A stretch of 64,000 nt of DNA. Origin: Cavenderia fasciculata (taxonomy: Eukaryota > Evosea > Eumycetozoa > Acytosteliales > Cavenderiaceae). The position numbers were made by a program, and so were the translations under genes. The notes below the pieces were generated by a model. It saw only the letters and a program-made list of their open reading frames with translations, did no database searches and was not told where the DNA came from. Shown here in pieces: positions 7,840-53,988 of this stretch. The stretch covers positions 1,426,001 to 1,490,000 of the forward strand of contig NW_004457736.1 in NCBI RefSeq assembly GCF_000203815.1, given 5' to 3'. Numbering within the stretch: the first letter of the stretch is position 1; each line of letters opens with the position of its first letter.

Positions 7840-9534
7840 TTATTCTTGTTGTTGATTAACATGAATGTGTTCAACACCCATTGCAGCATCGGTAGCATCT
7901 GCCAAGACACCATCGACAATTTGGTTAAACATATCGTCCATATCGAAAAAGTCGGTCATTGATTGAGGAATGACAGCTTGGAGAGTAGAGAGAATTGGCT
8001 TGACAAGGGGATTGACAATCTTCATTAAAGTTGGTTTGATGACCGAACGTACGACGTAGTGGATTTGACGACGTTGTTGGATATTGGCATCGTGGAATAG
8101 TTTTTCTTGTGTACGTGTCTTGCTAGCGGCAAGATCGAGTGAGGCGCCATTCTCTTTGACATCCTTTTCAAAAGTGTAGCATGCATTGTCCGAGATGGTG
8201 ACGATCTTTCCACGAATGTGATAGGTAATGGTGGATGCCCAAAAATCGGGGAACACATTGTAGAGAGTAGTGAGGAAATCGTACATACCCCAGATATGCT
8301 TTTGGGCAGGTTCCATGGGCCAGTAGTAGTGTGGATAACGACGCAACTCGGCGAAGCTCTTGTCGTTACCTTCGCCCTTGTACTCGGATACCTTGTCGTC
8401 CCAGATGGTGAGTGCCTTGCCAAACCCACCTTCGATGGGGTCTTGCACCTCCTTGCCGACAATCTTGGCAAGATGTGGGGTGACGTGTTCGCGAAGAGCT
8501 GGTTCGAGGACACCCATCACCGAATCCTTCATCTTGACAAGCATCTCGTGTTGCAACTTGGCAATGGGCTCGATTTGGTCTTTGATCTTGGGTTCAGCCT
8601 GTGGACGTACCTCTCCAACTGTCTTGTCCATTGCGATCCAGGCTGGACTGACAGCTGACGATATAATACCGTCAATCAACGTCATCAACTTGTTACGCAT
8701 AAAGTTACGGATAAAGTATGGTACGTTGGGTAGACCACACAATGCTCGTCCAAGAATATCATACTCTACCTCGTCGGCGATAATGTCGCAGAGCACCTGT
8801 GTCTCGGATCCACCCCAGCCCCACCAGCCCCAACGACCCAACGACCAACGTGTATTACGCACAGCCACGCCAAAGGCAGCCACATGCACCTTGTCTCTAT
8901 TCTTAAAGCCCCAAGCGTTACGACAACACCCTTGGAAAATCTCGACCCAGTCGTCAAACTCTTTTTGCGAGTCGGCCGTCAAATAGTAGATACGACGATA
9001 CGAATGGTAGAGTTCAATCGTCAGAGGTGGATACTCTTTTGGCTTGGGGATGGCACTCAAATCAATCTTCATCTTTTCAGCCAATACCTTTAATCTTTGC
9101 ATTATTCCTCTATTTGGATCAGTTTCTACTCTATATCCTGCTAAATTCATTACTCCTTTTGGTTTAATTAATTTCTAAAAAAAGTAAAAGTGTGTTAAAA
9201 CATAGTTTGAAATTAATTATGCTATTAATTATACATTTTTACTACATACAGCTTCATTTTCATAATATTCAACAGAGTAATCATGTTTGACGATGAAATA
9301 TCTCTTTTTCCAACTCTTTCTGACTACACCTTCTTTGGTAAGGTGACCTGTGAAACGATCAGAAGTGTCCTTGTCCTTTCGTTTCTCTAATTGCCATGGT
9401 TTCGGTTCTTTTTGGGAATCCTTGGATGCCTTTTTGACCAATTCTATCGTGTAGGCCTTGGTGTATTCCTTTGTAAAAGTGGCCAACACCGCTTTGGTTA
9501 AATCAACCAATTCTTGTTTTAATTGACCGTCCAT
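7840..9534 (-). CDS. PH-domain protein with a conserved long C-terminal region
   Basis: Two exons (9534-9250 and 9174-7840) give 539 residues. The exon junction falls inside the PH domain. Exon 1 contains the first strands (FTGHLTKEGVVRKSWKKRYF at about 62-81). Exon 2 contributes the rest, including IYYLTADSQKEFDDWVEIFQ with the closing helix Trp. After the PH domain comes a Trp/Gly-rich hinge (WSLGRWGWWGWGG) and a roughly 330-residue mostly helical region with no low-complexity sequence and no recognisable catalytic motif. Base composition in exon 2 is clearly GC-richer than the surroundings, as is usual for highly expressed dictyostelid genes. PH domains target proteins to membranes. The C-terminal part is of unknown function. 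Lack of repeats across 440 residues suggests strong constraint. Confidence 0.88.
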
Positions 9535-10367: not shown

Positions 10368-11572
10368 ATGAGTATGTATGTTCTATCACATGACTACTGT
10401 TAATAACGAAGAAATCTAACAGACGAACTAAATATATAGGTGAGTTTATTGGACCTTCAAGACCTCCTCCTCCTTCTTCTTCTACAACTAACAAGAAAGA
10501 GAACGATGATGATGATGTTAAACCAACTGCTGTATCAACAACAACAACAACAACAACAACAGTGACATCCCAAGAACCAAAGAAGAGAACTTATGGACCA
10601 TCATTAAATAGTGGGGATGATGAAAACGACAACAACAGTATACCAACTGTTGAAAGACCAACAAAAAGAGTAATGGGTCCTAGTTTATCATTGGATGATG
10701 ATGATGATGATGATACTCTTAAGAACAAAGACATAGTTAAAGAAAATAGTAGCAGACACGTAGGTCCCTCTGTTGGACCATCTCGGTCGGTTGGACCATC
10801 AGTCGGACCATCTCGATCTGTTGGTCCATCACGACCAATGGGACCTTCTATAGGTCCATCTAGACCACAATCAAATAATGACGACGATGATGACGATGAC
10901 GATGAAGACAATGATGAAGATGACGATGAAATTAAAGAACAATGGTCTAGGTTAAGATCACAAGACAATTCAAACACTGGTGATGACAAACAACAATTAA
11001 AAGTAGATAAAAATGGTGATATTATAAGAGAAGATTGGATGAAATCAATCCCTACTGATAGAAAAGTTGGATGTATGTAGTATAGAATGATATTAAAGTA
11101 TTAAAAAAGATACTAATATTTATTTATTTCATTTTTAATTTTAGCACAATTACAAAATAGAAAGTTTAGTAGTAATTCAAATGTTAGTTTAAATAAAACT
11201 GATACAAGTTCATGGACAGAGACAAGAGAAGAACAAGAAAAAAGAAAAGCAAATGAAATGACATCATCGTCAAGAGGTAAATACTCTAAAGAAGAGTCAC
11301 AAGAGATATTTAGAAAAAACAAAGAAAAGGAAATTGAAGAACAAATGAAATCATACAATGACAGGAATAGATCAAAATCACTAATGGAAATGCATAAAGA
11401 CAAAAAGAATGATAAAAAGTCATCATCTTCATCGACACCATCAAGAGAATGGAATAGAGATAAACAAATGGAAGTTGGTGGAATTGATAAAAATCATTTA
11501 AATAATATTGTTGTTAATGCAAAATATTTAAATTCTAAATTTGAATCAAATTCTTCAAATAAATACTTGTAA
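10368..11572 (+). CDS. gpalpp1: GPALPP1 (DUF3752) homologue
   Basis: Three exons: 10368-10371, 10440-11072 and 11145-11572, 354 residues. The first coding exon is only four bases (ATGA). Spliced to exon 2 it yields MSEFIGPSRPPPPSSS, and this is the only start that puts an ATG in frame. The N-terminal half repeats the GP[AS]xPP-like motif many times (IGPSRP, YGPSLN, MGPSLS, VGPSVGPSRSVGPS), interspersed with acidic runs. The C-terminal DUF3752 region is recognisable from REDWMKSIPTDRKVG, NRKFSS, TDTSSWTETREEQ and RSKSLMEMHKDKK. GPALPP proteins are nuclear, poorly understood and often linked to splicing or RNA metabolism (family knowledge, role uncertain). Introns are short (68 and 72 bases). 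Confidence 0.88.
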
Positions 11573-14773: not shown

Positions 14774-17700
14774 TTATTTACGTTTTTTTGCAGGTTTGTT
14801 TTTGTTGATTTTAATAAATGAATCAGAACCTACTCCACCTTGGGAATCACCAGCATTACCACCACTACTACCACTAGAGTTTATAATTCCAGCTGCAGTT
14901 CCAAATATTCCACCACTACTTCTTGATTGATTGTTGGTATTTACATTAAAGTTTAGTGATCCAAATGTTGGTGTATTACTATTACTATTGCTAGTACTTG
15001 TACTAGTTGTACTAGTGGTACTGGTGGTAGTTGTAACAATTGGTTCATCTATTGATTCTTCATTGATATCATCATTATTATTGTTGCTTCCACCAAAGTT
15101 TATTCCACCACTAACTTGTAATAGACTCTTTTCTCCTCCGTCACCGTGGTGAGAGAATGGATTACCAATATTTAATTTTCCTGACCACCCACCACTAGTC
15201 TTTAACGAGGAATCATGATGATCCTTGGATGATTCTTGAGAATGAGCGGCATTATCTTGTTGTAGTTGCTTATTCTTTTGTTCAAATGGATTTGATGTGG
15301 ATATATTACCGACATTAACCTTGGCACCACCAACTCCAGAAACATTACCACTTAGACCAAAGAGACTTCCACCACTAACCTTGTTGGCTGCAGCTTGGTT
15401 GAATGGATTAAGATTACCACTCACATTTAACAATTTACCACCAGCAAATGGATTTCCAATCGATACATTTCCTCCAACTCCACCAATATTACCTCCAAGA
15501 TTAAATAAATCTTCTCCACCACTACCACTCTTTTTATGTCCTTGTTGTTGACTTGTAGTAGTTGTAGTTGTAGAGGTTGAGGTATTTGTTGAATTATTAT
15601 TATTATTATTATCAACAATTGGAATATATTGTTGATTATTATTAAAATCAATTGATTGTTGTTGTTGTGGAGTGCTAAAATTATTTGAAATTGAACTTGT
15701 CAAGTTTGAAATCAAACCACCAAATAGACCACCGGAACTCTTGCTTCCTGCTCCAGTTGTAATCCCACCTGTAGTATTATTTGAAAGTACATTTCCAAAT
15801 GAACTAAAACTATCTTTGACAGCACTTGATGCATGTCCAATTTGATCTTTTGAGGCATTTGAAATATCTTTGGCAGTCTCTTTAGCTTGTTCAAATGTGT
15901 TGGTAGTGACATTTGAAATATCCTTTCTAGTCTCTTGAGCAATCTCCTTGGCATTATTGACAGTCTCTTTAGCTTGATTAAATGTTACATTTGAAATATC
16001 CGTTACATTCTCTTGAACAATATCCTTGGCATTATTGACTGTCTCCTTGGCTTGTTCAAGTGTATTGGCAGTGACATTTGAAATATCTGTTACATTCTCT
16101 TGAACAATATCTTTGGCATTGTTGACAGTCTCTTTAGCTTGTTCGAAAGTATTGGAAGTGACGTTTGAAAGGTCATTAGCAGCCTCTTGAGTATCTTGAA
16201 CTATTTCATTGGTAATTTCCTTGGCTTGTTCAAGTGTATTGGTAGCGACATTTGAAAGGTCATTTGCAGCTTCTTGAGTATCTTGAGCTAACTCTTTGGC
16301 AGTCTCTTCAGCTTGGTCAAACAAACTATCCAATTCCTTCTTTGCATTTGAATTTGAAAATTGACCTTGAATGGATTTGGCTGCATTTGTTACTCTTTCA
16401 TAAAATGATTGTGGTTGTTGTTGTTGTTGCTGTTGTCCTGATACTTGATCTGAGTTATCAATCTTGTCTTTGGCAAACTTTGATAGATCATCTAGTGCCT
16501 CTTGGGGAGCAATATTCTTTGGCTTGGAAATACCTTCAAAGATATCCTTGGGTGATAACTTTGCATCAAAACTGTCACGTGTAAAGTCTGATATATTATC
16601 ACCCATACCTTTTGTATTAGAGTAGGACTGATACGATGACATCATGTTGTTTGATGTAGGAAGAATACCACTAGTAGCACTACTATTTGTAACAATTGTA
16701 CTAAAATTTACAGGTACAACAATACCAGAAGAGTTGGTTCCATCTGGAATAAAAGCAGGTGGAATAATGGTAATTTGATAACTTTGATTGCCATTTCCGT
16801 CATTACCACCACTACCGCTATTATTATTATTATTGTTTTCTCTAATGGCAGATGGAGCCATTTCAATTGATTTGGAAATTGAATCTATTCCTTTGAGTAA
16901 TTTATCAGCTGCAGTGGCACCACGTAGAAGGATAGGGAATCCATCACCGAGTGATTTAAGTGATACAAATGCTCTGATAAGATACAAAAAGAATTTAAGT
17001 AATGTACCAAGTGTAATTACTTTATTCCAAACTTGATATGCTCCAATATATGCAATCTAAAATAAATAAGTAAATAAAAGTTAGATACTTTTTTAAAAAT
17101 AATAATATTATACACTACTTACTGATACCATTAATAATTGACAAACAAATTGAGATGATTCACCAAATAGATTTTCAATCAATGTAGCTACTTTTTTCAT
17201 AAATGTAGTTGGATTTAATTGAATTGGTTGTTGTTGTTGTTGTTGAGAGTTACTACCGCTACCAGCACCAGCACCATCAGCAGGAATAATTTGTATATCA
17301 GGTAATGGTTGTTCTTGTTGTTCTTGTTGTTGTTGTTGTTGGAATGGTTGTTTATAAAGATCACCCAATTTTGATTTTGAGGAAGAGAAAATATTCTGAT
17401 TCATGTTTGATGTATTGGATGGTTGAATAACAGGCAAGTCATGACGATCTTCATTTGTAGTGGTACTTGTTGAAATGGTTGGATTATCAGCAGTTGGCCA
17501 AGCAGTTGGATACATTGGAGATGTACCTGACCCTACTCCAATAGTACGATTTTGTGCGCCACTTGAATTATCAGAAGTTGGCCATGCAGTTGGATACATT
17601 GGAGATTCACCTGTTGTACCGTCGTCCTTGACATTGGTGGTTGAACTTGAATTATCAGAAGTTGGCCATGCAGTTGGACGTAGTGGAGATGGTTCATTTG

Positions 17701-25074: not shown

Positions 25075-25216
25075 TATCGAATGAGATTCTAATTATTGAG
25101 TATTTGTGAATCAAAATAAATGTATATAATATAGTAATGTTATGGTGTAAATATAATATTCAAAGTTTCTTTATTATTATTATATTAATATTAGTTATTA
25201 TTATTTATTTTTAAGG

Positions 25217-26700
<1,484 letters not shown>

Positions 26701-27933: not shown

Positions 27934-29520
27934 ATGATAAATAGTTTAAAAAAAGGAAATACAATAACAACAAGACTAGCAAAGAACTTTAACTACTTTA
28001 AAAGGTTCTATTCTTTTTCTGCTCCTGCTGCTCCTCCTCCTTCTCCCTTGTTTGGAGGAGGAGGAGGAGGAGGAGGGCAAAGGCAATTAATACTCGTATC
28101 ACAAGATTGGACGAGACCAAAAGATCCCCCATTATCACTTGGGCATGCATCGCTATTAACCAATCTCCGTCTCCATCAAGTCGATGTGATTGAGAGATCG
28201 TGGTCCGTCAACGCACCAGATTTCTCATCCGACTCTGTCACTGACTTTATCATGAATAATGTCAGGGAGGACGGCAGAACCGACGTGGCTTTGGGCGCAT
28301 TCGTTTGGAACGAACACAGCACCAAAGCAATACTCCGTAACCTCAAAAAGCATCGTTTCCCCGGCCGAATTATTTTGGGTGGCCCTCAAGCCAGTTATCT
28401 CAAAAGTAATATTGAATCCTACTATCCAGAAGTAGATTATTTCATCCGTGGATATGCTGAATCTGCCATTGTAGATTTAATGAAATCAAACGTCGACGAC
28501 GACCTTTTGATTTCAACTCCAACCATGATCGCTACTAGTACTGGTACTAGTAAACCGACGTCGGTTGGTGGTACTACACCATGTAGCAGTGGTAATAATA
28601 ATAAAACCAAAGGAATACATCGAGCTGGAGCACTTCCCGATTTAGGGTTGTCAGCTACCGCCGATCTAGAGACTCTACCCTCCCCATTTCTCAGTGGCAC
28701 TATCAAACCCCAGAGATTTATGCGGTGGGAGACTCAACGTGGTTGTCCCTTTCGTTGTGCGTTTTGTCAACACCGTGAATCAGACTCTGACTCTGACTCG
28801 CACGTGCGTAGACACATGTCGCTCACTCGGACACTACAAGAATCTGAATGGATCACCAACAACCCAGTCATTCAAGACTTGGCTGTACTAGACCCCATCT
28901 TTAACTCTGGCCCCAACTATCTCGAGATACTTGACCAACTCTTACGCGGACGCTACTCTGGAAAGCTGTCGCTTCAATGTCGTTTGGAAATGGTAAAGGA
29001 ACCATTTCTCGACAGAGTGTCAAGACTCAAAGATCAAGGTTGCCAGGTTGTTTTAGAGTTTGGGCTTCAGACCATTCATGCGGCCGAACAAAAATTAATT
29101 GATCGACCAAACAACATCAAACGTGTTGTTCAAATACTCAAAGAGGTTGGACAGCGTGCCATACAGACTGAAATCAGTCTCATCTATGGTCTGCCACTAC
29201 AAACGGTAGAGACATTCAAAGAGACTATTGATTTCTGTCGTACGCACGCTCCCAACAACGCTGTGATTCATGCGTTCCCATTAATGCTTCTTCGAGGAAC
29301 ACCTTTGTTTCATCGCAAGCACGAACTTGGAATCATCGAATCCAACGAAATAGTCTCGGATAATAATATTATCCCTCGACTACAATCAACCCCAGACTCG
29401 CTCGTCGACATACCTCATGTCGTTGCCAGTCCTTCATTTACCTACCAAGATTGGAAAGAAATGACTAAATTATCTGAACAATTAGAAATTGATAATCAAA
29501 GAATTCAATTAAATAATTAA
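27934..29520 (+). CDS. B12-binding-domain radical SAM protein, probably mitochondrial
   Basis: An intronless gene of 528 residues. Residues 1-45 are basic/hydroxylated with no acids (KKGNTITTRLAKNFNYFKRF), resembling a mitochondrial presequence, followed by a Gly-rich linker. Residues ~50-180 are a Rossmann-like cobalamin-binding-type domain (LILVSQDWTRPKDPPLSLGH, FPGRIILGGPQASYL). A dictyostelid-style Ser/Thr insert (~190-235) follows. The radical SAM core begins WETQRGCPFRCAFCQHRESD, with the 4Fe-4S cysteines at 271, 275 and 278. It continues with LDPIFNSGP, LQCRLEMV, LEFGLQTIH and the EISLIYGLPLQT segment. The class uses SAM cleavage for radical reactions; the substrate is unknown. The bacterial-type architecture, lack of introns and GC-rich codons unlike its neighbours point to lateral acquisition (inference). 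Confidence 0.88.
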   Translation: MINSLKKGNTITTRLAKNFNYFKRFYSFSAPAAPPPSPLFGGGGGGGGQRQLILVSQDWTRPKDPPLSLGHASLLTNLRLHQVDVIERSWSVNAPDFSSDSVTDFIMNNVREDGRTDVALGAFVWNEHSTKAILRNLKKHRFPGRIILGGPQASYLKSNIESYYPEVDYFIRGYAESAIVDLMKSNVDDDLLISTPTMIATSTGTSKPTSVGGTTPCSSGNNNKTKGIHRAGALPDLGLSATADLETLPSPFLSGTIKPQRFMRWETQRGCPFRCAFCQHRESDSDSDSHVRRHMSLTRTLQESEWITNNPVIQDLAVLDPIFNSGPNYLEILDQLLRGRYSGKLSLQCRLEMVKEPFLDRVSRLKDQGCQVVLEFGLQTIHAAEQKLIDRPNNIKRVVQILKEVGQRAIQTEISLIYGLPLQTVETFKETIDFCRTHAPNNAVIHAFPLMLLRGTPLFHRKHELGIIESNEIVSDNNIIPRLQSTPDSLVDIPHVVASPSFTYQDWKEMTKLSEQLEIDNQRIQLNN

Positions 29521-29700
29521 AGATCAACCAACAACCAAAAACAACAACAACAACAACAACAACAATATTCTAAAAGAATATTATTAGAAAAAGAAATATT
29601 AAATTAAATAATGATAATGATAATTAGATTAAATAAAATTTTAGAAAACAATTTATTACAAGTTAATATTATATTTTTACATCTACTCTTATTATTATTA

Positions 29701-31187
<1,487 letters not shown>

Positions 31188-31786
31188 TCTTGAAATTGAA
31201 GTATTATTATTATGTTGGTTGAAAAAAATAAAAAAAAGTGAAAAAAGGGTTGATGTTGTTTGTGAGAGAGCGAGAAACAAAGAGGAGTGTTGCGGTGAGG
31301 AATGAATGAATGAATGTACTTTTGTTTTAAAAGAGAGTTTTATATATACAAAGGATGAATAAGTTGACTAGAGTATAGTATAATATGTAAAATATATAGA
31401 GGTTGTTGTTTCTCTATAGAGTAGCAAGCTCTAAAAAAAAGTCGATTTTTGTTGTTGAGTATTAAAGATGAAAATGTAAAACTATTGAAGAAAAAAAGAG
31501 TATTGAGGAGAACAAAGAGAATAAAGTAAAGTAGAGTAATATCTTTTAATAATTGTACTTTTACTTTTACTTGCTTCTTCTTTTATGTTTTATTATTACA
31601 AAAATAATGAAGTTACCGTTGAAAATTTTCTTTTTTTTTTAATTTTTTTTTTTACAAATTTTTGAACTTCGGCCCATCCAGGAGTACCTTAAAATTTAGT
31701 GGTACGCCAATTGGTATACCATTCGAATATTCCACTCTTTATTTTTTATTATCTAATATATTTATTTTTAAAATATTTTGTCAACA
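31188..31786. other. intergenic with an imperfect palindrome
   Basis: 600 bases upstream of MYST copy B and downstream of the first LRR-family gene. It is AT-rich, with GAATGAATGAATG near 31303. Between 31660 and 31735 a non-AT patch (GAACTTCGGCCCATCCAGGA) leads into the near-palindrome GGTACGCCAATTGGTATACC. No gene seen. Confidence 0.5.
31701..31720. repeat. 20-bp imperfect palindrome
   Basis: GGTACGCCAATTGGTATACC differs from its reverse complement at only one symmetric pair of positions. It is located about 70 bases beyond the stop of the first gene of the LRR array. Confidence 0.7.
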
Positions 31787-33469
31787 TTAAATAAAACATT
31801 TAATCAATGATTTTGATTGATTAAAATATTGGTGTTGATGATATTCATTTGCCATTTTATAATCGATTAGTAAATATTGAACAGTGTCACTCTCTAATAA
31901 TGAATCAAATATATCTTGCTTAAATTGATTATAACCTATGTTTAATACTTTAATCGATTTGTTTTGTTTAAATGCATTGTTCAACTCTGTACTTGGTGAC
32001 AAATGGTTGCCACTTATATCTAATGCCTTGATAGTTTGGTTGGTCAATAATAATTCACAGAATGATGGAATATATTCTTTAACCAATGTACCACATGTCA
32101 ACATTAAAGTTGTTATACTTTGGTTGAGAGACAGAGTCGAGAAAAACATTGGTGAAATGATATTTGGAAGTGATGATAATCCAAGTAGTTCAATGGTATT
32201 GTTTGATTGCCAAATGGGGTCAAACGAAGATACCAATCTTTCATTTGAAATTGATGGTTGTTTAGAATGGCCTTGGGAGATCCTTGTATGATAATCTTCC
32301 AAAAAAAGATGTTTAAAAGTTGTATTGTTGGTTAGATTAGTGCATAGTTGATCCCAATCTCCTAGTGTATCTTCACATTCGAGTTGAAAAATACAACAAG
32401 GTTCACTATTAAAATATGGTCCATATCTATCACCATCGCCACCATCATCTTGGTTCATTTCCATTTCCAATTTACATAGAGATATACCAGTTTTAAGAGA
32501 TTGAATATTGAATGTTGAATCAGATACAATGTGTTTTAAATAAACCAACTCTATAAAATCATTATCAATGTTGATATGTTGAGTTGTTTTTGATAAATGA
32601 TCTAATATAGATTGGTAATCTAAATGATAAATTGTACCATTATCAATTGCCATATTAATGTGTTTTGGTTTCAGGTCATCTAACATTTGAAGATAATCAT
32701 CGGTTCCTGATTCTGAGTAATGATTGTATTGATCAGATCCATTTTTAGTTGTAATGACAGTGATGGGATCATACCCCTGAAAGAAGACATTATCTGGCCA
32801 TTCCAGTATCCTACCAACTGTGATATTCAAGTTAACTTGAATCTGTGGGAATGAGTTAATGACTAGTACAATATCTATTATAGTATTCTTGTCCAATTTA
32901 TCTCCAATAATATCGATTGATTGTAGTTGTGGAAATAGAGGGGGTAATACAGAATAATCATATTCTTCATAGTTGCCATAAAATGATGGTTGATATATTC
33001 CTTGGTCTTCTTCTCCTCCTTCTTCTTCTTTACCAGTTACCTTCCATTTGAGAGATTTAGCAGTCTTTGAAAAGTATGATTCTTGTAACTGACCATTTAT
33101 CTTGAAGTCTGTTGCAGTTTGTAGTGTCACTTTCATCCACCATTTAGATACCATTGCAATATTACCAATCTGATACAATGTAACAAACTTGGGTTGTTTC
33201 TTTTCGAGTTGTTTGTTGATCATTAGATATAATGCTTTTTGTGGTTTTATGATCTGAAAACCATGATCGTCATCAATACTACAATGATCTTTAACACCTC
33301 GACAATGAATCACCTTTTCAATGATCAGTGATTGAATGTATTTCGAAAGTATACAACCAACATCATCATCATGATGATGATCTATTTGATTATCTATTGT
33401 TTTTGACATACTATTATCTATATTATGTATACATTGACAATGAGTCTCTTTGATCATTCGTCTTTGCAT
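31787..33469 (-). CDS. LRR-family protein, array member 1 (560 aa)
   Basis: A single exon of 560 residues. The N-terminal ~110 residues carry the family's helical signature: CILSKYIQSLIIEKVIHC, then IGNIAMVSKWWMKVTLQT. This is F-box-like in pattern (LxxYI...ALVSKWW) but not a certain F-box. Middle: PQLQSIDIIGDKLD and WPDNVFFQG segments. C-terminal ribonuclease-inhibitor-type leucine-rich repeats follow (NLTNNTTFKHLFLEDYH, NQTIKALDISGNHLSPS, NKSIKVLNIGYNQF). It ends in the family tail YFNQSKSLIKCFI. There is no signal peptide or TM. An internal Met at about 20 could be the true start. A role as a substrate adaptor or ligand-binding scaffold is only an inference. It is the first of five intact tandem paralogues. 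Confidence 0.85.
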   Translation of the reverse strand: MQRRMIKETHCQCIHNIDNSMSKTIDNQIDHHHDDDVGCILSKYIQSLIIEKVIHCRGVKDHCSIDDDHGFQIIKPQKALYLMINKQLEKKQPKFVTLYQIGNIAMVSKWWMKVTLQTATDFKINGQLQESYFSKTAKSLKWKVTGKEEEGGEEDQGIYQPSFYGNYEEYDYSVLPPLFPQLQSIDIIGDKLDKNTIIDIVLVINSFPQIQVNLNITVGRILEWPDNVFFQGYDPITVITTKNGSDQYNHYSESGTDDYLQMLDDLKPKHINMAIDNGTIYHLDYQSILDHLSKTTQHINIDNDFIELVYLKHIVSDSTFNIQSLKTGISLCKLEMEMNQDDGGDGDRYGPYFNSEPCCIFQLECEDTLGDWDQLCTNLTNNTTFKHLFLEDYHTRISQGHSKQPSISNERLVSSFDPIWQSNNTIELLGLSSLPNIISPMFFSTLSLNQSITTLMLTCGTLVKEYIPSFCELLLTNQTIKALDISGNHLSPSTELNNAFKQNKSIKVLNIGYNQFKQDIFDSLLESDTVQYLLIDYKMANEYHQHQYFNQSKSLIKCFI

Positions 33470-34166: not shown

Positions 34167-35891
34167 TTAATCAAAAAATGGAGAATAATATGGAGTGAAG
34201 ACTGTGTCTACACTCTTAGCATTGAAACAGTTAATCAATGACTTTGATTCAATAAAATATCGGTGTTGCTTATAATCTGACAAATAATAATCGATCATTA
34301 AGTATTGAACTGAATCACTCTCCAATAATGAATCAAATATATCCTTTTTGAATTGATTATTTGCGATATTCAATATTTGAATCGATTTGTTTTGTTGGAA
34401 TGCTTGATTCAAGTCGGTACTTGGTGCCAAACGATTTCCACTAATATCCAATGCTTTAATTGTTTGGTTGGTCATGATTAATTGACAAAATGATGGAATA
34501 TATTCTTTTTCCAAAGTACCATTGGTCAATTTTAATATTGTGATACTGTGGTTGAGCGACAAACTATCAAAAAATAGAGGTGAAATGATTCTAGCTAGAT
34601 TTGATAATCCAAGTAGTTCAATGGTATTGTTTGTTTGCCAAATGGGTGAAAATGATGATACTAATCTTTCGACCGAGACGGAAGGGGTTTGAATGGTTTC
34701 TTCTTCTTCTAATTCCATTTCAATTTCTTCATAATCAAGAATCTTTTTTAGATACCATCGGTCATCAAATCTGTTTTTTGATGAGGGTCTTCTTGGTCCA
34801 TGTCGATCCCCCAAACAGAGTTGTTTCAACGATGTATTGTTGGTGAGATTAGTGCATAGTTGGTCCCAATCTTTTAGAGTATCTTGGACAAAGAATAATC
34901 CATAAGTACATTTTGAACAAGTTCCTATTTTGACGACTCCATTCAATTCCTCTTCCAAAGGACACATAACCACTATACCAGTATTGAGTGATTGAGTATG
35001 ATTGAATGAATCAGTATTTACAATATCTTTTAGATATCTCAGTTCAATAAAGTCATATTCAATATTGATATGTTGTGTACATGTTTTGAGAAATGGGAAT
35101 AATCTTTGGTAGTTGTAATGATCAATCTCACCAATTCTAGATCCAATTTCAGACCCAATGTGAATAGTAGTTGGTTGTAGACGGTAAATCATTCGATGAA
35201 AGGTTTCAATGACTGGTGGATCATCAAAGTAACCATAGTGATCGACCGATTTAATAGAGACCACTGGTTTGATTCCTGTAAACTTGACTCCTGATGGCCA
35301 TTCCCCTCTTCTATTATGATCTTCAGATAAATCAAAGGTGGCTTGAATGTGAGGAAATAGATTGATGACTTGAACGATGGCTCTAACTGCTTTCTTGTCT
35401 AAATTGACTCCAACGATATCCAGTGTCTTTAGGTGTGGTAGTAGTCTAGGTAATCTTGTATAATCAAAATTGTCATAGTTGATACGACGGTCAACTTCCT
35501 TTCCTTTACCACTGTACACATTCCATTTGAACGACTCTATTCTCTTTGAAAAGTATGATCCTCTCAAAGGACCATCAATCTCGATACTTTTTGATGTAAT
35601 TTGACTTGCCACCTCCATCCACCATTTAGATACCATTGCAATGTCTGCTAGTTCATAGAATGAAACAAATTTGGTCTCTTTCTTTTTAGGTGTTTTGTTT
35701 AGCATTAAATATGATGCATTCTCTGGTGAAATGACATGAAATCCATGATGGCTATAGTGATCTTTATCATTACTATCATTAATCAACATGTCAATAATCA
35801 TTGCTTGAATGTATTTAGAAACACAAACAATTGCATCTTCTACTTGATAACTTTCTTTTGTTGTTGTTGTTGTTCTTTTTGTTGTTCTCAT
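34167..35891 (-). CDS. LRR-family protein, array member 2 (574 aa)
   Basis: A single exon of 574 residues with the family layout. It has the N-terminal VSKYIQAMIIDMLI helix and LADIAMVSKWWMEVASQ, the middle LPHLKTLDIVGVNLDKKAV and EWPSGVKFTGIKP blocks, and a Cys-containing loop (CPLEEELNGVVKIGTCSKC). C-terminal RI-type LRRs follow (NNTSLKQLCLGDRH, NQTIKALDISGNRLAPS, NKSIQILNIANNQFKKDIF), then the tail YFIESKSLINCF plus a unique 20-residue extension. The N-terminus begins with a Thr run (MRTTKRTTTTTKE). No membrane segment or signal peptide. Function unknown. Same strand as its neighbours, about 700 bases from member 1's remnant. Confidence 0.85.
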   Translation of the reverse strand: MRTTKRTTTTTKESYQVEDAIVCVSKYIQAMIIDMLINDSNDKDHYSHHGFHVISPENASYLMLNKTPKKKETKFVSFYELADIAMVSKWWMEVASQITSKSIEIDGPLRGSYFSKRIESFKWNVYSGKGKEVDRRINYDNFDYTRLPRLLPHLKTLDIVGVNLDKKAVRAIVQVINLFPHIQATFDLSEDHNRRGEWPSGVKFTGIKPVVSIKSVDHYGYFDDPPVIETFHRMIYRLQPTTIHIGSEIGSRIGEIDHYNYQRLFPFLKTCTQHINIEYDFIELRYLKDIVNTDSFNHTQSLNTGIVVMCPLEEELNGVVKIGTCSKCTYGLFFVQDTLKDWDQLCTNLTNNTSLKQLCLGDRHGPRRPSSKNRFDDRWYLKKILDYEEIEMELEEEETIQTPSVSVERLVSSFSPIWQTNNTIELLGLSNLARIISPLFFDSLSLNHSITILKLTNGTLEKEYIPSFCQLIMTNQTIKALDISGNRLAPSTDLNQAFQQNKSIQILNIANNQFKKDIFDSLLESDSVQYLMIDYYLSDYKQHRYFIESKSLINCFNAKSVDTVFTPYYSPFFD

Positions 35892-46301: not shown

Positions 46302-49300
46302 ATGATCATCATGTCATCTTTTAAAACTGTGCTTTTACTCTTGTCGACAATAGTACTGGGTTCAGTATTATTGTCGTCATCATTGGTATCTGCTCAATGT
46401 GCAAGCCCATACACATGGGACTCTGGCGAAGCCGCCAACAACCACACCTATTGTGCAATTGGTGTCGGAAGTATATATTCTTGGTATGAAGCCTTAAACT
46501 ATCTTGCTGCACTTCCAAAGTATTTTGGAAAACAACCGTATGTATACATTTAAAAATTTATCTATATATATTTTAATTAAAAACATTACATTTTATTAAT
46601 TTGATTTGATTACTATTTATGTATTTATTTATTTTTAGATATTTGGCAACTGTTACATCTGAAGAAGAATTGAAATTTTTAACATCTAAATTCCCTAGTT
46701 TGGTAAACTGCTATGTCGGTGTTGACAGAGATATATTTAATCAACTCCGTTACAGTTCTGGTCCAGAAAGAGGTGAAGTCATGTATGACTATCCAACGTA
46801 AGTACAACAATTCCTATACAAGAATATTATATAAATATTTCTTTTTCTTTACACAAATATTTCTTTTTCTTTATTTTCTTTTTAGAGGAGTAAATCAAAT
46901 GTATAATAATTTCCAAGCTCATATTCCAGGAGGAGATCCAAATCAAAAGGTAGCATTCTTTTTCACAAGTAATAACTTTTTCATGGGTCTTCCACCCTAC
47001 TCGTCCACTTCCAATTGTTATTTGCTCGAGTATAGTGAAGCTACCGATCCGTACGTTGCACCAATGCCCTCTGAAGGTGGTGATGTGACCATCAAGTTTT
47101 TGGACAACTTTGTCGTCGAAGATGTCAATATCATTGTCAATCCATTTGGAGGTGCCCCAGTATCTTGTGAAATCGTTTCTCGTGACCCACAATACAAGAC
47201 ACTTGTCTTTAAGATGCCAGCCATGACTGGCATTGGAGTAAACTTTATCTTGGTTGACGATGGTTTCACCACATTCAACATCACCTATTGGAAATACAAA
47301 GCTCCAGCCATTCAATCGGTCTACCCCACTCGTAAAGGCAACGGTGAATTGATTACCATCGTCGGTAACAACTTTGGTGCCGACAAGACTGCCATCTCGG
47401 TCACCACTGGCTACCTCTATCATCCATGTCTCTACATTGATATTGTCGAACCCCATTACGCCATCTCTTGTCAAACCAATCATCCAGTCACCTCTTCAAC
47501 CAATCTTTTCCCTCTAACCATTAGAGTTGGTCAATCTTCTAATATTACTAGTTATAGAGCTGCTTTTTGTAAGTAATCAAAATATATATATAATTATTTA
47601 ATTAATTATTAATTTATTTCTTTTTTTATGTTCCTTTTTAGATGATGATGAAAATGTAAAGATGATTAGATTAAATTATTATGCAATGAGTGCTGTTATT
47701 ATTAATAATTCAGTGACTGCACAAAAAGAGGTATTGTTTGAAGGACATACACCATACATGGGATTGTATGAAACAAAGTTACAATATGATTTGATTCGAT
47801 CTACTTGGGCATGGCAAAGTTTCCCATCGGCTACTTTTATGGCTGGTGGTATTGGTAACCAGACAAGCTTTATTATTCGTAATGGTGGTGGTCCAAGAGA
47901 CGGAGAACGTGTGACCAACGGAACCACTTGTTTGACTGGTATCTATTGTCCGATGGGTACGTTTGACGGTACGCTTATTGCCAACTACAACACGATGCTT
48001 GGTAGATTGTCGTATCAAGCATTTAGTTCAGCCGGTGAGTTGGTCTATTACGGTGACACACCATACATTGAACCACAAGAACTGACCATTGACGCTGCCG
48101 GAGGATTGATCATTGTTCCACTCGCTCGCGGTACCGTCGGTTTCAAGTATACCAAACGTTCCTATGCTATCGATGGTATGACCACCTCATACCCCATCAA
48201 GGTGTTGAATAACCGTACTTTGGGTTTGACCATTCCAGCAGGCATCTCTTTGAGTTTTAATCTCAGTATTACTATTGAAAAGTACGTATTCTCTGGTTTG
48301 CGTGTCAATTACACTACTCCATCGGTACTATCGATCCCACCGGTTAGTACAATGGGTGGTTTCGTGACAGTCTATGGTTATGCTTTTGGTAATGATGAAA
48401 AGAAGATTTCAATCACTATCGATGCTGTCCCATGTCCCAATGTCGTCCTATTGGCCAATGAAACGATTCTGTCGTGTCTTGCACCACCAGGTGTCGGCGC
48501 CAACAAGACCATGCTCATCACTATTGACAATGTCGTCCAAAACGTCTCCTTTTCCTACAAGTCTCCTGCAGCCACCGAGGTCGTCCAAAATGGTACCTCT
48601 ATCGCCATCTATGGTAGTAACTTTGGTAATGCTCTGACTACACCACAGGTATTTGTTCCATACCCCGTCGCAGTCAACTTTACCTACGACACACTCGTCC
48701 AATCACTCAATGCAACCGTGCCAGTCTATGCCCAAAACGGAAAGATCTTTATTCAGGCGGGTAACCAGATGGGATCGATCAACTATGTCTACCGTCCACA
48801 ATTTGCGACGATCACTCCCATCACATCGACTGAGGGTAACACTGTAACGATTAGTGGTATGTTTTTGACTCAGTACCGTACCGACGGTATGCAAACCAAC
48901 TTTAGAGTGGTCATTGGTGGTCGTACTTGTGCTCAACCAGAATTTTCGTACAATGTCAATGGCACCTATGTTACTTGTACAGCTCCAGCTGGTTCAGGTC
49001 TCGCCAACGATGCCTACATTACAGTCGACGGCCAAACATCCAACTACCAATCGATCAACTATCCAGCACCATCCATCTCCTCGTTTACACAAAACGGTCA
49101 AATCCTCACTATTTACGGTGCCAACTTTGGACCAGATCTAGATCGTATCAAGTTGAATCTAAATGGCAATCCATTGGCTTGTCAATCCGTCGCCACTAAA
49201 CCATCGAGATTAATCTGTTCGATTCCATCAATCACCAAGAATGGAAATATATCGGTGACTGTGCAAGGACAAACATCCAATGTTGTCGAATTGACCTTGT

Positions 49301-52300
49301 TGCCATCGATCATTCGTGTCACCTCGCAAACCATCTATGGTGGTCTGATCACATTCACAGGTACCTTTTTCAATATTTTAAATTGGCAAGGAAACCAAAC
49401 CAACTTGGATATTACGATTGGCGGCGCACCATGTACATCGCCACAGGTAACCTACTCGAATACCTATATCACGTGTAATGTCGCTGCCGGCACCGGTATC
49501 AAGCCACTCAACTTTACACTCGGTCCCAATACCATCATGACCACATTCCAATACATTGCACCCAGACTCCAAGTATACGAATGGAAGAACAACCAAATCA
49601 CATTGAATGGTACCAACATTGGTACTGATATGGACAAGATTAGTATCTATATCTATCAAGATATACCAGGTAATGTAGCCACACTCATCCCATTCAATGC
49701 TACCGGGGACATGTACTATCAGTCGATCATCGCCGACACACCAGTCGATATGCTCAACGGTGTCATTTACATCTCTGTCGATAACCTCGCTTCCAACCAA
49801 CTCTATGTTCGTCTCATTCCACAAATTGATTCTGTCGTAGGCGTGTTCCCAACCGCCGGTGCTACCACCATCACAATCTACGGTGACCACTTTAACAACA
49901 AGAATGGTGCTGGTGCATTTGTCCAAAACTACATCCTCATCGGTGAAACGTTCTGTAACAATGTTGTCTTTTACAACCGTACCTGCATGACCTGTGTAGC
50001 CGGTATTGGATCAGGTCTCAATAAACGTGGGTTCGCCATGATTGATTCGACCGTCTCCAACAACTTTTACGTAAACTATACAGCTGCCAACGTCACCAAG
50101 ATTGTCCAAACCAACATGCTACTCGAATTGACCGGTACCAATTTTGGTAACAAACCATATCTCAATGTTTTAGCCTTTGGTCCACTCGTAAACTCTACCG
50201 CATCCTACACTACACAAGTATTGTCACGTGTGACAGTCTCTCCATTTAGCCAAAATGGTAACATCTCGTTTATTGTCGATGGTCAATCATCTAACCTATT
50301 CCCATGGAAGTTTACTCCCATCATCACGTCTGTTTCATCGGTCGATTATGCCGGTGGTAATATCACTGTCATGGGTTACTTTTTCAACGGTACTACCGTC
50401 GATGGTAACTCGACCAGCCCCAAGATCTACATCGGTACAAAGGGTCAATGCGCCAATCTCACCTACCTCGCCAACGACGTCGTCAACAATGCCGCTGTCA
50501 TTGTGTGTTCAGCTCCTCCAGGTTCGGCCGCCGATATCGATATTCCATTCAACGTCGAGATTGACGGTGTCAACGGTACCACCAAGTTCACCTATGGTGC
50601 TCCACAACTCAACAGCTACACCATCACACAAAACAACCAAATCACACTCAAGGGATACCAGTTTGGTGTCGACCCAGCCAAGGTTCAAGTCTACTTTGGC
50701 ACTGTGTTGATGGCCATCCAGTCCATCACCGATTCCGAGATTACCTTTACTGCAACGGCCGCTCTCTACAATGAGAATGTGTATGTTAGATCGGTGACCA
50801 ACGCCAAGACGACCAACCCACTCTTTGTGACGTTGTACCCCGTTATTCGAACTTCCACCGCCGCACCAACCACTGGAGGTAGATCAACGATCACTGGTAG
50901 TTGGTTGAACCAACGTTCTGGAAACTACTCGACCTCTATTCGTGTTTGGGTCAATGGTTCGAGTGGAAGTGTAAACTCGATCGTCCAAACCAACAACCTT
51001 CAATTCCTCATCAATGCACCTGCAGGTACCGGTCTCAACAAGAATCTTACCGTCTCTTTTGATGGTATGTCTTCAAGTTTGTTGACATTCTCGTATCTCC
51101 CACCAACCATCTTCAACACCATCCAGTCTGGTACGACACTTACATTCAATGGTACAAACTATGGTCGTGATCTTGCCAATGTCTACACTACCCCATTCAC
51201 TGCATTGTCTGGTGTATCTGACCTCCTCCTCTCGGTGACTCTTGCCAAAGACACCAAGAGTGGTATGTACAACGTCCAAGTCGACGGTCAAACATCGGCC
51301 AACTACATGGTCTACTTGACTCCAATCATCTCACAGGTTATCCCAGCTCCAACAACCGGTCCATCTGATATTACCATCAAGGGTACCTTCCTCAACCAGT
51401 TCCGTGTCGACGGTAGTCTTACCAACGCCTCTGTCTGGTTGAACAATGTGTCTTGTCCCATCACCTCGTTTGTTTCAAACACTTTGATTACCGCTACTGT
51501 CCCACTCGGTCTCTACCGTAAGGGTAACCTCACAGTTGCTATCGACGGCAAGGTCGCCATCACCAAATACGACTCTCTCGGCCCTGAAGTCTACACTGTC
51601 ACCAACCCACCCATCTACCAAGTCGCACAAGTCGTGACAATTACCGGCAAGAACTTCTTTGACCCGCTCGTCGTCTATATTGGAGACAGCGAGTGTACCG
51701 TCGCCATAGCCATCACTGAAAACTCACTCTACTGCTCGTTTGACAGTACCGTCCAACCTACCCTCGCACTCATCCCAGTCTCTGTCATCTCGACCGGTCT
51801 CATTGGCACTGCCAATATCTTTAGCTACGCCGATCTCACTTGTCAAAACAACTGTAATGGTCACGGTACCTGTCTCAATGGTATCTGTAGCTGTGACGTT
51901 GGATTTGGTGGTGCACTCTGTCACACTGCCGTCAACCTTACCGTCCCAGTCCCCAGCACCTCAGAGTTTGGTGGGTCTGTCACAACCGATCAAACCACCT
52001 ACAATGTCGGCGTCCAATTCATCCGTGAGATTGATGCCTTTGGTGTCACTGTCAAGGTGTATGAAGCATCCAAGATGTACTGGATCCTCGCTGGCAAGGC
52101 TGAATACGACACTTATACAGTCAACACTTACACTGCATCGTTTGCAAGTAGTGGAGAGCAAGCCAAGATCACCATCAAAACCTACGAGTTTGAGTATGGT
52201 GCACTCTTTGAGTTTGGCGGTGAAAAGTTGCCCGAATCATCTCACTCGTTCAAACATCAAGTTGCCATTGACCACTATGGCTTTGTAACCACCGGAAACT

Positions 52301-53988
52301 CGCTTCAAGTCATCTATAGCGCATCGACCCCCACAACCTATGCCGATGGATGTGCATCTGCCCAAACTGCCTACACTCTCTTTTACAGTAGTCAAACTGG
52401 ATCTGTGTTGGCCTATGACTTTGAAACCAAGTACTCTGTATTTACCGCTCGTTTCAGTACTAGAATCTTGGTTGATTACTCGGTTCAAACCATCGAGATT
52501 AATCCACTTGCCAAATCCGATCCACTATGGTCCACTCAAAACGGTCTCCTTGAATCAAAGATTGTCATCAATGTTCCATCATTCTCTTACAATGTAGAGT
52601 TTGATCCAAACTTTAGTGCCTATGTCAAGGGTATTAATCCAACTTGTGTTAATCCAACTACTACTAGTGTAACAACTGTCACTCCAACTACTGTCACCCC
52701 AACAACTGTTACTCCAACAACTAGTACCCCAACAACAGTCGATCCAACCACATCTCAGACAACTCAAACTGCTACACCAACCACCTCGACTCCAACAACC
52801 TCTACTCCAACCTCTGCCACTACTGCATCATCTGATCCAACTACTAGTAATCCAACTACTGCTACACCCACTACTAGCAACCCAACCACTAGTAACCCAA
52901 CTACCGGTCAAACTAGTATTGCGACAACTGTAGCACCTTCAAGCTCTACCAATCCATCGTCGACTGGTCCCATTGTCACTTGTCCAGGTACTCCAGTTTG
53001 TTCTGGACGTGGTACTTGTGTCGGTCAACTCGGTGTCTACCATTGTGTCTGTCAAGGTAACTGGCAAGGATCAGACTGCTCAGCCGAGCCAGGCAAGATT
53101 CCTCCACCAACCGACCCAAGCACTGACAATCCAAACACCAACCAAACCGACACAGAGTCTGGTGTCAAACTCGATATCAATGTCATCTCGATTCGTGAAG
53201 TCGACTTTATGGATCAAATCATTGGAGAATACAAGTTTGGTAAGAATTGGACATTCAACGAGACCAAGACCGACCAACAACTCATCTACCTCTATCAAAC
53301 CGATGTTGTTCGTGAAGGCAAGATCACCACTCATATCAATGTAACCGTTCAATACTTTTACTATGAGACCAACATTACCTTTGCCGGTCAAACCAGTACA
53401 ATGTCACCTGGTTCGATAAAGTACTCTGTTTCACTGTCCAAATTTGATTTTGAAAGTGGAAACAATGGTCTTCAAGTATTGTTCTCTTCTGTTGCCTCTG
53501 CATCCACATCTTCAGACGACGCATGTTCACTCAAACAATTCGAGTATGGTGATAACTCTAAAGATCTAACTGCCATCTCACTCCAAATCAACGGTAGAAC
53601 ACTCTATGGTAAATTCACAAAGTTTGCCTTGGCCGATGGAAAGATTGTACGTTCCACCAATGAAGTCATCTCAAAGGATCAACCAACCGACTCTAACTCT
53701 ATCGTTCAAGCTGTTGTCGCTATTGGCGTCGGTAACTATGGTACCTCTGCAGTCATTGACCCAGACTTCCATCTCTTGATCAGCTCTGACGCCTCTGAAA
53801 AGGAGGGATCAAATTGCTCTGGCTCATCCTCTAAACTCTCAAATGGTGCCCTTGCAGGTATCGTTGTTGGTTCAGTTGCTGGTGCTGCTGTTCTCGTAGC
53901 TGCTGGAATCTCTGCCAAGAAATGGAGACAACTTAAAAAGGATCAAAGTATTACCGATTCAAAATTAAAGAGAATGAATGCTTATTAA
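46302..53988 (+). CDS. giant cell-surface adhesion protein: CTLD, IPT/TIG repeats, EGF, ComC domains, TM
   Basis: Four exons (46302-46537, 46639-46797, 46886-47568, 47642-53988) encode 2,474 residues. The start is the first in-frame ATG; one three codons later is equally possible. A signal peptide ends ...SLVSA. A C-type-lectin-like domain follows (SIYSWYEALNYLAALPKYFG, YLATVTSEEELKFLTSKFP, TSNCYLLEY). Then about sixteen IPT/TIG-type Ig-like units (~300-1750) alternate between a longer type with a GG-x-ITI-GxFF core and a shorter type with GxNFG. EGF 1 is at ~1756 (CQNNCNGHGTCLNGICSCDV). It is followed by a ComC-type supersandwich domain (~1784-2020), a Thr/Pro-rich mucin-like linker (~2026-2136), EGF 2 (~2140) and a second ComC domain (~2200-2410). 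A TM helix (GALAGIVVGSVAGAAVLVAA) and a 25-residue basic tail end the protein. Family relatives mediate cell-cell adhesion and recognition. Confidence 0.9.

Follow-up and report, generated by a model that had tools for sequence, protein, structure and literature searches.

A PDC-M51A-type radical SAM gene of Cavenderia fasciculata: a candidate mitochondrial, cobalamin-dependent enzyme of bacterial-type ancestry

The window analyzed here, a stretch of 64,000 nucleotides of the Cavenderia fasciculata genome, contains a single-exon gene whose product is well supported, by profile comparison, as a member of the PDC-M51A family of radical SAM proteins. Taken as a whole, our interpretation is that the gene encodes a laterally acquired, mitochondrial, cobalamin-dependent PDC-M51A radical SAM enzyme that modifies a nucleotide; we put forward this complete statement tentatively, with slightly less than even confidence. 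Beyond the preliminary description of this DNA, the analysis connected the gene to a candidate phage-defence family whose sister genes lie beside nucleotide kinase and viperin genes, which gives a testable substrate class. The features referred to below are as follows (coordinates are those of the window).

25208..26700, minus strand: MYST (MOZ/SAS) acetyltransferase gene, copy 1 (MOZ_SAS 195 bits on ORF 25630-26001; context only)
27934..29520, plus strand: PDC-M51A-type B12-binding/radical SAM gene, 528 aa, single exon (from the ORF, Pfam and PADLOC)
27934..28104, plus strand: presequence-like N-terminal extension, residues 1-57, with RFYS at residues 24-27 (28003-28014), then a Pro/Gly-rich linker
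28081..28503, plus strand: B12-binding-type domain, about residues 50-190 (PF02310, TokK/CysS alignments)
28504..28605, plus strand: Ser/Thr/Asn-rich insert, about residues 191-224, in the window row only among the 22 rows of alignment A1
28729..29238, plus strand: radical SAM core, residues 266-435 (PF04055, 54.4 bits), with CxxxCxxC (C271, C275, C278) at 28744-28767
29689..31190, minus strand: MYST (MOZ/SAS) acetyltransferase gene, copy 2 (MOZ_SAS 196 bits on ORF 30136-30498; context only)

Gene, domains and family assignment

The ORF begins with the ATG at 27934 and continues in one uninterrupted frame to a stop codon ending at 29520. Because its relatives can be aligned across almost all of it, an intron need not be assumed, and the gene is intronless as had been described. 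The earlier statement that the neighbourhood is intron-rich was compared, by reading, with the two flanking MYST genes. A search of the whole genome (31.0 Mb, 21 contigs) returned one match only for the radical SAM protein. The MYST copies on either side of the gene are in tandem, with 93% mean column identity; as the genome has just the one copy of the radical SAM gene, either the MYST duplication excluded the radical SAM gene or the additional copy was lost. Further along the minus strand are two paralogous ORFs, 31787-33469 (560 aa) and 34167-35891 (574 aa), which contain repeats of 72-84% identity and are without a Pfam match.

The codons of the gene had been said to be far richer in G/C than those of its surroundings. 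Among 32 stop-to-stop ORFs of the window of at least 150 codons, a set that is not one of curated genes, its overall GC (0.438) ranked third, but its GC3 (0.383; mean 0.276, sd 0.098) ranked eighth, a mild enrichment at most. Seven ORFs exceeded it in GC3 (e.g., 7843-9174 at 0.507 and 47602-53985 at 0.460). Because of this rank, codon and GC composition was set aside as weak evidence for transfer.

The protein falls within the radical SAM superfamily by its match to PF04055 (54.4 bits versus a cut-off of 29.5). For the domain order that had been proposed, B12-binding-like and then radical SAM, the CxxxCxxC core was recovered, whereas the PF02310 B12-binding match (residues 101-182, 25.3 bits) was below the Pfam cut-off of 32.1. 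The profile of the window protein's family, however, aligned through the B12 domains of both CysS and TokK. Pattern searches identified CxxxCxxCxH in 147 of 147 homologues, the window protein included, and likewise the VW motif that contains W125; a DxHxxG motif within the first 250 residues was found in one of the 147. W125 (28306-28308) aligned on TokK W76, the position of a non-ligating residue under the cobalt, and was invariant in A1 (22 rows, with the window protein among them) and in alignment A2 (12 rows, five of them sister-subfamily proteins). Excerpts of two papers describe TokK W76 as occupying the space under cobalt, with CysS and ThnK thought to be alike (PMC13331322, PMC9692996). 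Together, these comparisons support a radical SAM core behind a B12-type domain, with cobalamin use predicted. Two further B12-binding matches in the genome are, by reading, methylmalonyl-CoA mutase and methionine synthase.

The PADLOC model for PDC-M51A matched the window protein at 401 bits and eight relatives at 444-459 bits, and all 22 members of A1 matched it at E<=1e-5. Nine other radical SAM proteins used as controls scored 17-92 bits; eight of these were from one Auribacterota genome and one was from a viral contig, with TokK and CysS outside the set and the B12 domains of the controls unchecked. PDC stands for phage defence candidate in the part of PMC11514479 available, and the name is also used in PMC12753311. 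It marks a predicted defence family, for which antiviral activity is a candidate role. A literature search, in which subscription journals were thinly covered, found no paper on the window gene or on PDC-M51.

No M51B kinase gene is beside the window gene, whose adjoining genes are the MYST copies, and an M51B-type partner was not found in the amoeba genome, the sole match (43 bits) being a housekeeping thymidylate kinase by reading. Based on an M51A match with the M51B neighbour missing, we treat the protein as a lone eukaryotic M51A-type enzyme and do not file it as a PDC-M51 system. It is not classed as a viperin, as the pVip models of PADLOC gave no match to it at E<=0.01. NCBIfam gave distant matches only, and the best of them (KedN5, NF033712, 74.8 bits versus a cut-off of 700) leaves the protein outside that family. 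Residues 344-518 also matched MnmL/YtqA (tRNA modification) at 52.8 bits, with a cut-off of 180.

The N-terminal extension

Residues 1-57 of the window protein contain seven K/R and no D/E, the latter having a chance of about 7e-4 at the frequency of the protein body, and FKRFYS is common to the window protein and its T. lacteum orthologue. These features uphold the earlier description of a presequence-like N-terminus. In a survey of 141 proteins, six without the anchor motif were dropped, and 73 of the remaining 135 had an extension of at least 15 residues. These long extensions had 3.1% acidic residues versus 11.9% in the body. The motif R-[FYLC]-[FYCN]-[STN] occurred in 17 of the 73 (shuffle mean 1.7, maximum 6 in 1000) and a looser motif in 23 of the 73 (shuffle mean 10.1, maximum 20), the motif classes having been picked post hoc, after the N-termini had been viewed. 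We take RxY-S to be a mitochondrial cleavage motif. The window protein begins with a basic segment that is poor in acidic residues and contains a cleavage-type motif, as expected for proteins of the mitochondrial matrix. Its sequence supports an organelle-type presequence, and import into mitochondria is predicted. The hydrophobic moment of its presequence was matched by 10% of shuffles and is not significant; the corresponding values were 38% for T. lacteum, 57% for Paraglomus and 2.5% for P0004.

A signal-peptide-like start was observed in nine proteins (P0004, P0006, P0009, P0018, P0039, P0107, P0108, P0116 and P0147), and in several of them a basic, acid-poor stretch comes next. These segments could be bipartite signals of the plastid type, could result from wrongly called start codons, or could belong to bacterial proteins that are secreted.

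Relatives, ancestry and bacterial sister loci

The homologue search scored 7997 candidates and identified 1530 proteins at E<=1e-3, and the best 120 of the 1530 were examined. The closest among the matches listed was T. lacteum DLAC_04861 (65% identity). The same 120 included Paraglomus occultum, Gigaspora margarita and Cetraspora pellucida, which we take to be arbuscular mycorrhizal fungi, as well as a Rickettsiaceae MAG, a gammaproteobacterial MAG and P. violaceum CYY_001322. A transcript of the diatom Attheya came from a second search, and a third gave no additional named organism among the 120 matches listed. A restriction to dictyostelids is thus not supported. The domain order had been called rare in eukaryotes; this family is present in several of them (dictyostelids, fungi and a diatom transcript), and bacterial MAGs also carry it. 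No further dictyostelid name was among the best 120 of the 1530 matches, which suggests that the gene is absent from other dictyostelids.

In the trees, the window and T. lacteum proteins were sisters (support 100/91 in a 56-row tree and 100/93 when rooted on the sister subfamily), and P0004 was placed next to them (91/84, 94/89 and 99/88), all inside a large family that is mostly metagenomic. The P. violaceum protein (P0117), which is without a long extension, was in another clade together with P0084 (76% identical), and a single clade of P. violaceum, window and T. lacteum proteins was rejected (p-AU 3.8e-5). The P. violaceum copy may represent a separate transfer, a symbiont, or a contaminant or bacterial contig; the main text of the P. 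violaceum genome paper mentions none of contamination, bacteria, endosymbionts or horizontal transfer. Vertical inheritance in eukaryotes had been named in the preliminary description as the outcome that would tell against transfer. Constraining the named dictyostelids and fungi to one clade gave a p-AU of 0.018, and adding the diatom gave 1e-10, which speaks against it in part, as the rows between the named dictyostelids, fungi and diatom may be eukaryotic or bacterial. The nearest rows in the tree may likewise be eukaryotic. Bacterial MAG proteins were placed inside the window protein's family. The homologue search and trees sustain the bacterial-type ancestry suggested earlier, and lateral transfer is the favoured route of acquisition. 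C. fasciculata belongs to the Acytosteliales, and an excerpt of PMC7259674 gives C. fasciculata and T. lacteum as representatives of groups 1 and 3. The simplest reading is one gain before the split of these two species and later losses; passage of the gene between dictyostelids is a possible alternative.

Other sources for the gene were considered. A virus origin was rejected, with six distant matches on viral contigs (24-35% on the best segment) and none for the sister protein, as was a plasmid or phage origin, for which there were distant matches only (19-27% identity among the matches listed). A window-clade bacterial neighbourhood at 1e-40 was found in none of 39 relatives of an Auribacterota genome, none of 384 genomes (these 39 included) and none of 16 genomes of one small phylum. 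A scan of genome contigs gave one distant locus.

Genomic context came from a bacterial sister subfamily that is 33-35% identical to the window protein (five of six proteins aligned) and is not the window protein's own clade; the kinase and viperin neighbours described here are those of that subfamily. Its six proteins matched PDC-M51A at 544-628 bits. In a phylum survey one of 398 genomes matched at 1e-40, and in the order of the matching genome six of 187 did, that genome included. These genomes are probably proteobacterial (Pseudomonadota), judging from a Cox11 match of 183 bits in the centre genome, with Caulobacter the sole match of 14 controls. The sister gene pair had no DNA match in E. 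coli genomes.

Across the six sister loci (18 kb each), a thymidylate-kinase-like gene was the next gene in five; none was among the listed ORFs of L029. The four kinases that were scanned matched PDC-M51B at 242-279 bits and VakA at 84-101 bits, that of L032 was assigned by reading, and among solved structures the L031 kinase is closest to thymidylate kinases. In L028 and L031 the stop codon and start codon of the M51A and kinase genes overlap as TAATG, and L033 has an overlap of 13 bases between the two genes. In two of the six loci a prokaryotic viperin gene is just before the sister gene (345 bits in L031 and 344 bits in L032, with the kinase-associated pVip model), and viperin structures match the L031 protein. 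CHAT-domain and ParE-like genes are upstream of the M51A gene in L030, and L033 is similar by reading.

Several other features of these loci were observed. The viperin-like protein of L031 (7277-8446) has a C-terminal ParE-like domain at residues 319-378, and L030 has a ParE-like ORF of 104 aa (8324-8638) before its M51A gene. Downstream of M51A/M51B in L031 are two ORFs of 304 aa (10546-11460 and 15133-16047) that are alike over their first 60 residues, and the former matches NYN, OST-HTH and cold-shock domains.

Proposed activity, alternatives and known systems

A nucleotide is the most likely substrate class, by analogy with the sister loci. SAM and the [4Fe-4S] cluster would generate a 5'-deoxyadenosyl radical, and base-off cobalamin would assist, either by donating a methyl group or as a partner in the radical chemistry. 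The predicted product is a modified nucleotide akin to the ddhNTPs of viperin or the oxetane nucleotides of OxsB/AlsB. In bacteria the role would be anti-phage; in the amoeba the site of action would be the mitochondrion, where the enzyme would work by itself or together with a host kinase. A modified nucleotide is proposed because the sister genes directly adjoin or overlap a gene for a thymidylate-kinase/VakA-like kinase and viperin precedes them in two loci. Where a cobalamin-type radical SAM gene and a nucleotide-kinase gene overlap, the simplest mechanism would be that a nucleotide is modified by radical chemistry and is also phosphorylated. As the M51B partner is missing in the amoeba, a host kinase or another substrate would be required.

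The main competitor to a nucleotide-modifying enzyme is a C-methyltransferase of the TokK, CysS and KedN5 kind, mitochondrial and cobalamin-dependent, with a lipid, cofactor, peptide or natural product as substrate. TokK and CysS are the best solved relatives, KedN5 is the best NCBIfam match (74.8 bits), and a Trp under the cobalt is of the methylase type in the portions consulted of PMC13331322 and PMC9692996. The KedN5 score is, however, far under its cut-off of 700 and the sister subfamily is linked to a nucleotide kinase, and we regard this alternative as possible but unlikely. Far less probable is a radical SAM enzyme that makes no use of cobalamin, for example an RNA-modifying one. The sub-threshold B12-binding match and the weak match of residues 344-518 to MnmL/YtqA (52.8 bits versus 180) would fit it, but the alignment of the family profile with TokK and CysS extends through their B12 domain, and all 147 homologues searched have the VW motif.

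As to origin, lateral acquisition competes with an old eukaryotic mitochondrial family that was lost in most lineages, with bacteria and P. violaceum having separate copies. Extensions that resemble presequences occur often in this family (the motif being in 17 of 73), and dictyostelids, fungi and a diatom transcript all carry it. We consider this improbable given the p-AU of 0.018 for a clade of dictyostelids and fungi, and 1e-10 with the diatom, although the rows between may be eukaryotic, and given the bacterial MAG proteins inside the family. Contamination or a dead gene, which the single exon and raised overall GC could suggest, is given almost no weight, and here the preliminary description is supported. 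The contig is 1.77 Mb with a MYST gene on either side, the frame is intact, the invariant columns of A1 are kept, and there is a T. lacteum orthologue. In addition, the protein contains in-frame low-complexity inserts. The Ser/Thr insert noted earlier is indeed there and is seen in none of the remaining 21 rows of A1; a Ser/Asp run has three more residues than its T. lacteum counterpart (A1).

If the favoured reading of a nucleotide-modifying mitochondrial enzyme is correct, it would have wider meaning. An excerpt of PMC7689651 counts just two B12-assisted enzymes in eukaryotes such as mammals; a mitochondrial B12 radical SAM enzyme would be a third type, in a genome that has both known types by reading. 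Antiviral radical SAM chemistry is common to bacteria and eukaryotes via viperin (PMC10732462, in part). If several eukaryotes carry a second enzyme, drawn from a candidate defence operon of bacteria, bacterial immunity and that of eukaryotes would be connected in a new way. We speculate, and think it rather a long shot, that dictyostelids, mycorrhizal fungi and other eukaryotes captured a bacterial antiviral radical enzyme and aimed it at mitochondria, where a B12-made modified nucleotide would provide viperin-like organelle immunity (e.g., against RNA viruses of mitochondria or against bacteria inside the cell). The hypothesis can be tested in T. lacteum, which carries the orthologue and in which knock-ins have been made, according to the part of PMC13046832 seen.

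Of the known systems, PDC-M51 (an M51A radical SAM protein plus an M51B thymidylate-kinase-like protein) is matched over the whole window protein, at the 401 bits of the M51A model; the window protein differs in being eukaryotic, in its presequence and inserts, and in that an M51B partner was not found. The cobalamin-dependent radical SAM methylases TokK and CysS share its two-domain layout, the CxxxCxxC motif and, by alignment, the Trp under cobalt, but the profile match with them covers part of the window protein, at about 98 bits, and the score against the KedN5 family is under its cut-off. With pVip and VakA the likeness is in a radical SAM gene tied to a nucleotide kinase, as M51B matches VakA and viperin adjoins the sister gene in two loci. 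Viperins, which produce ddhNTPs, have a single radical SAM domain in the excerpt of PMC10732462, unlike the window protein, which has no pVip match at E<=0.01. OxsB and AlsB, which rearrange dATP or dAMP toward nucleoside analogues in the passages available of PMC13331322, resemble it in proposed function only, that is, in cobalamin-dependent radical SAM chemistry on nucleotides; they are ring-contracting enzymes, and no OxsB match was among the solved structures at E<=0.01.
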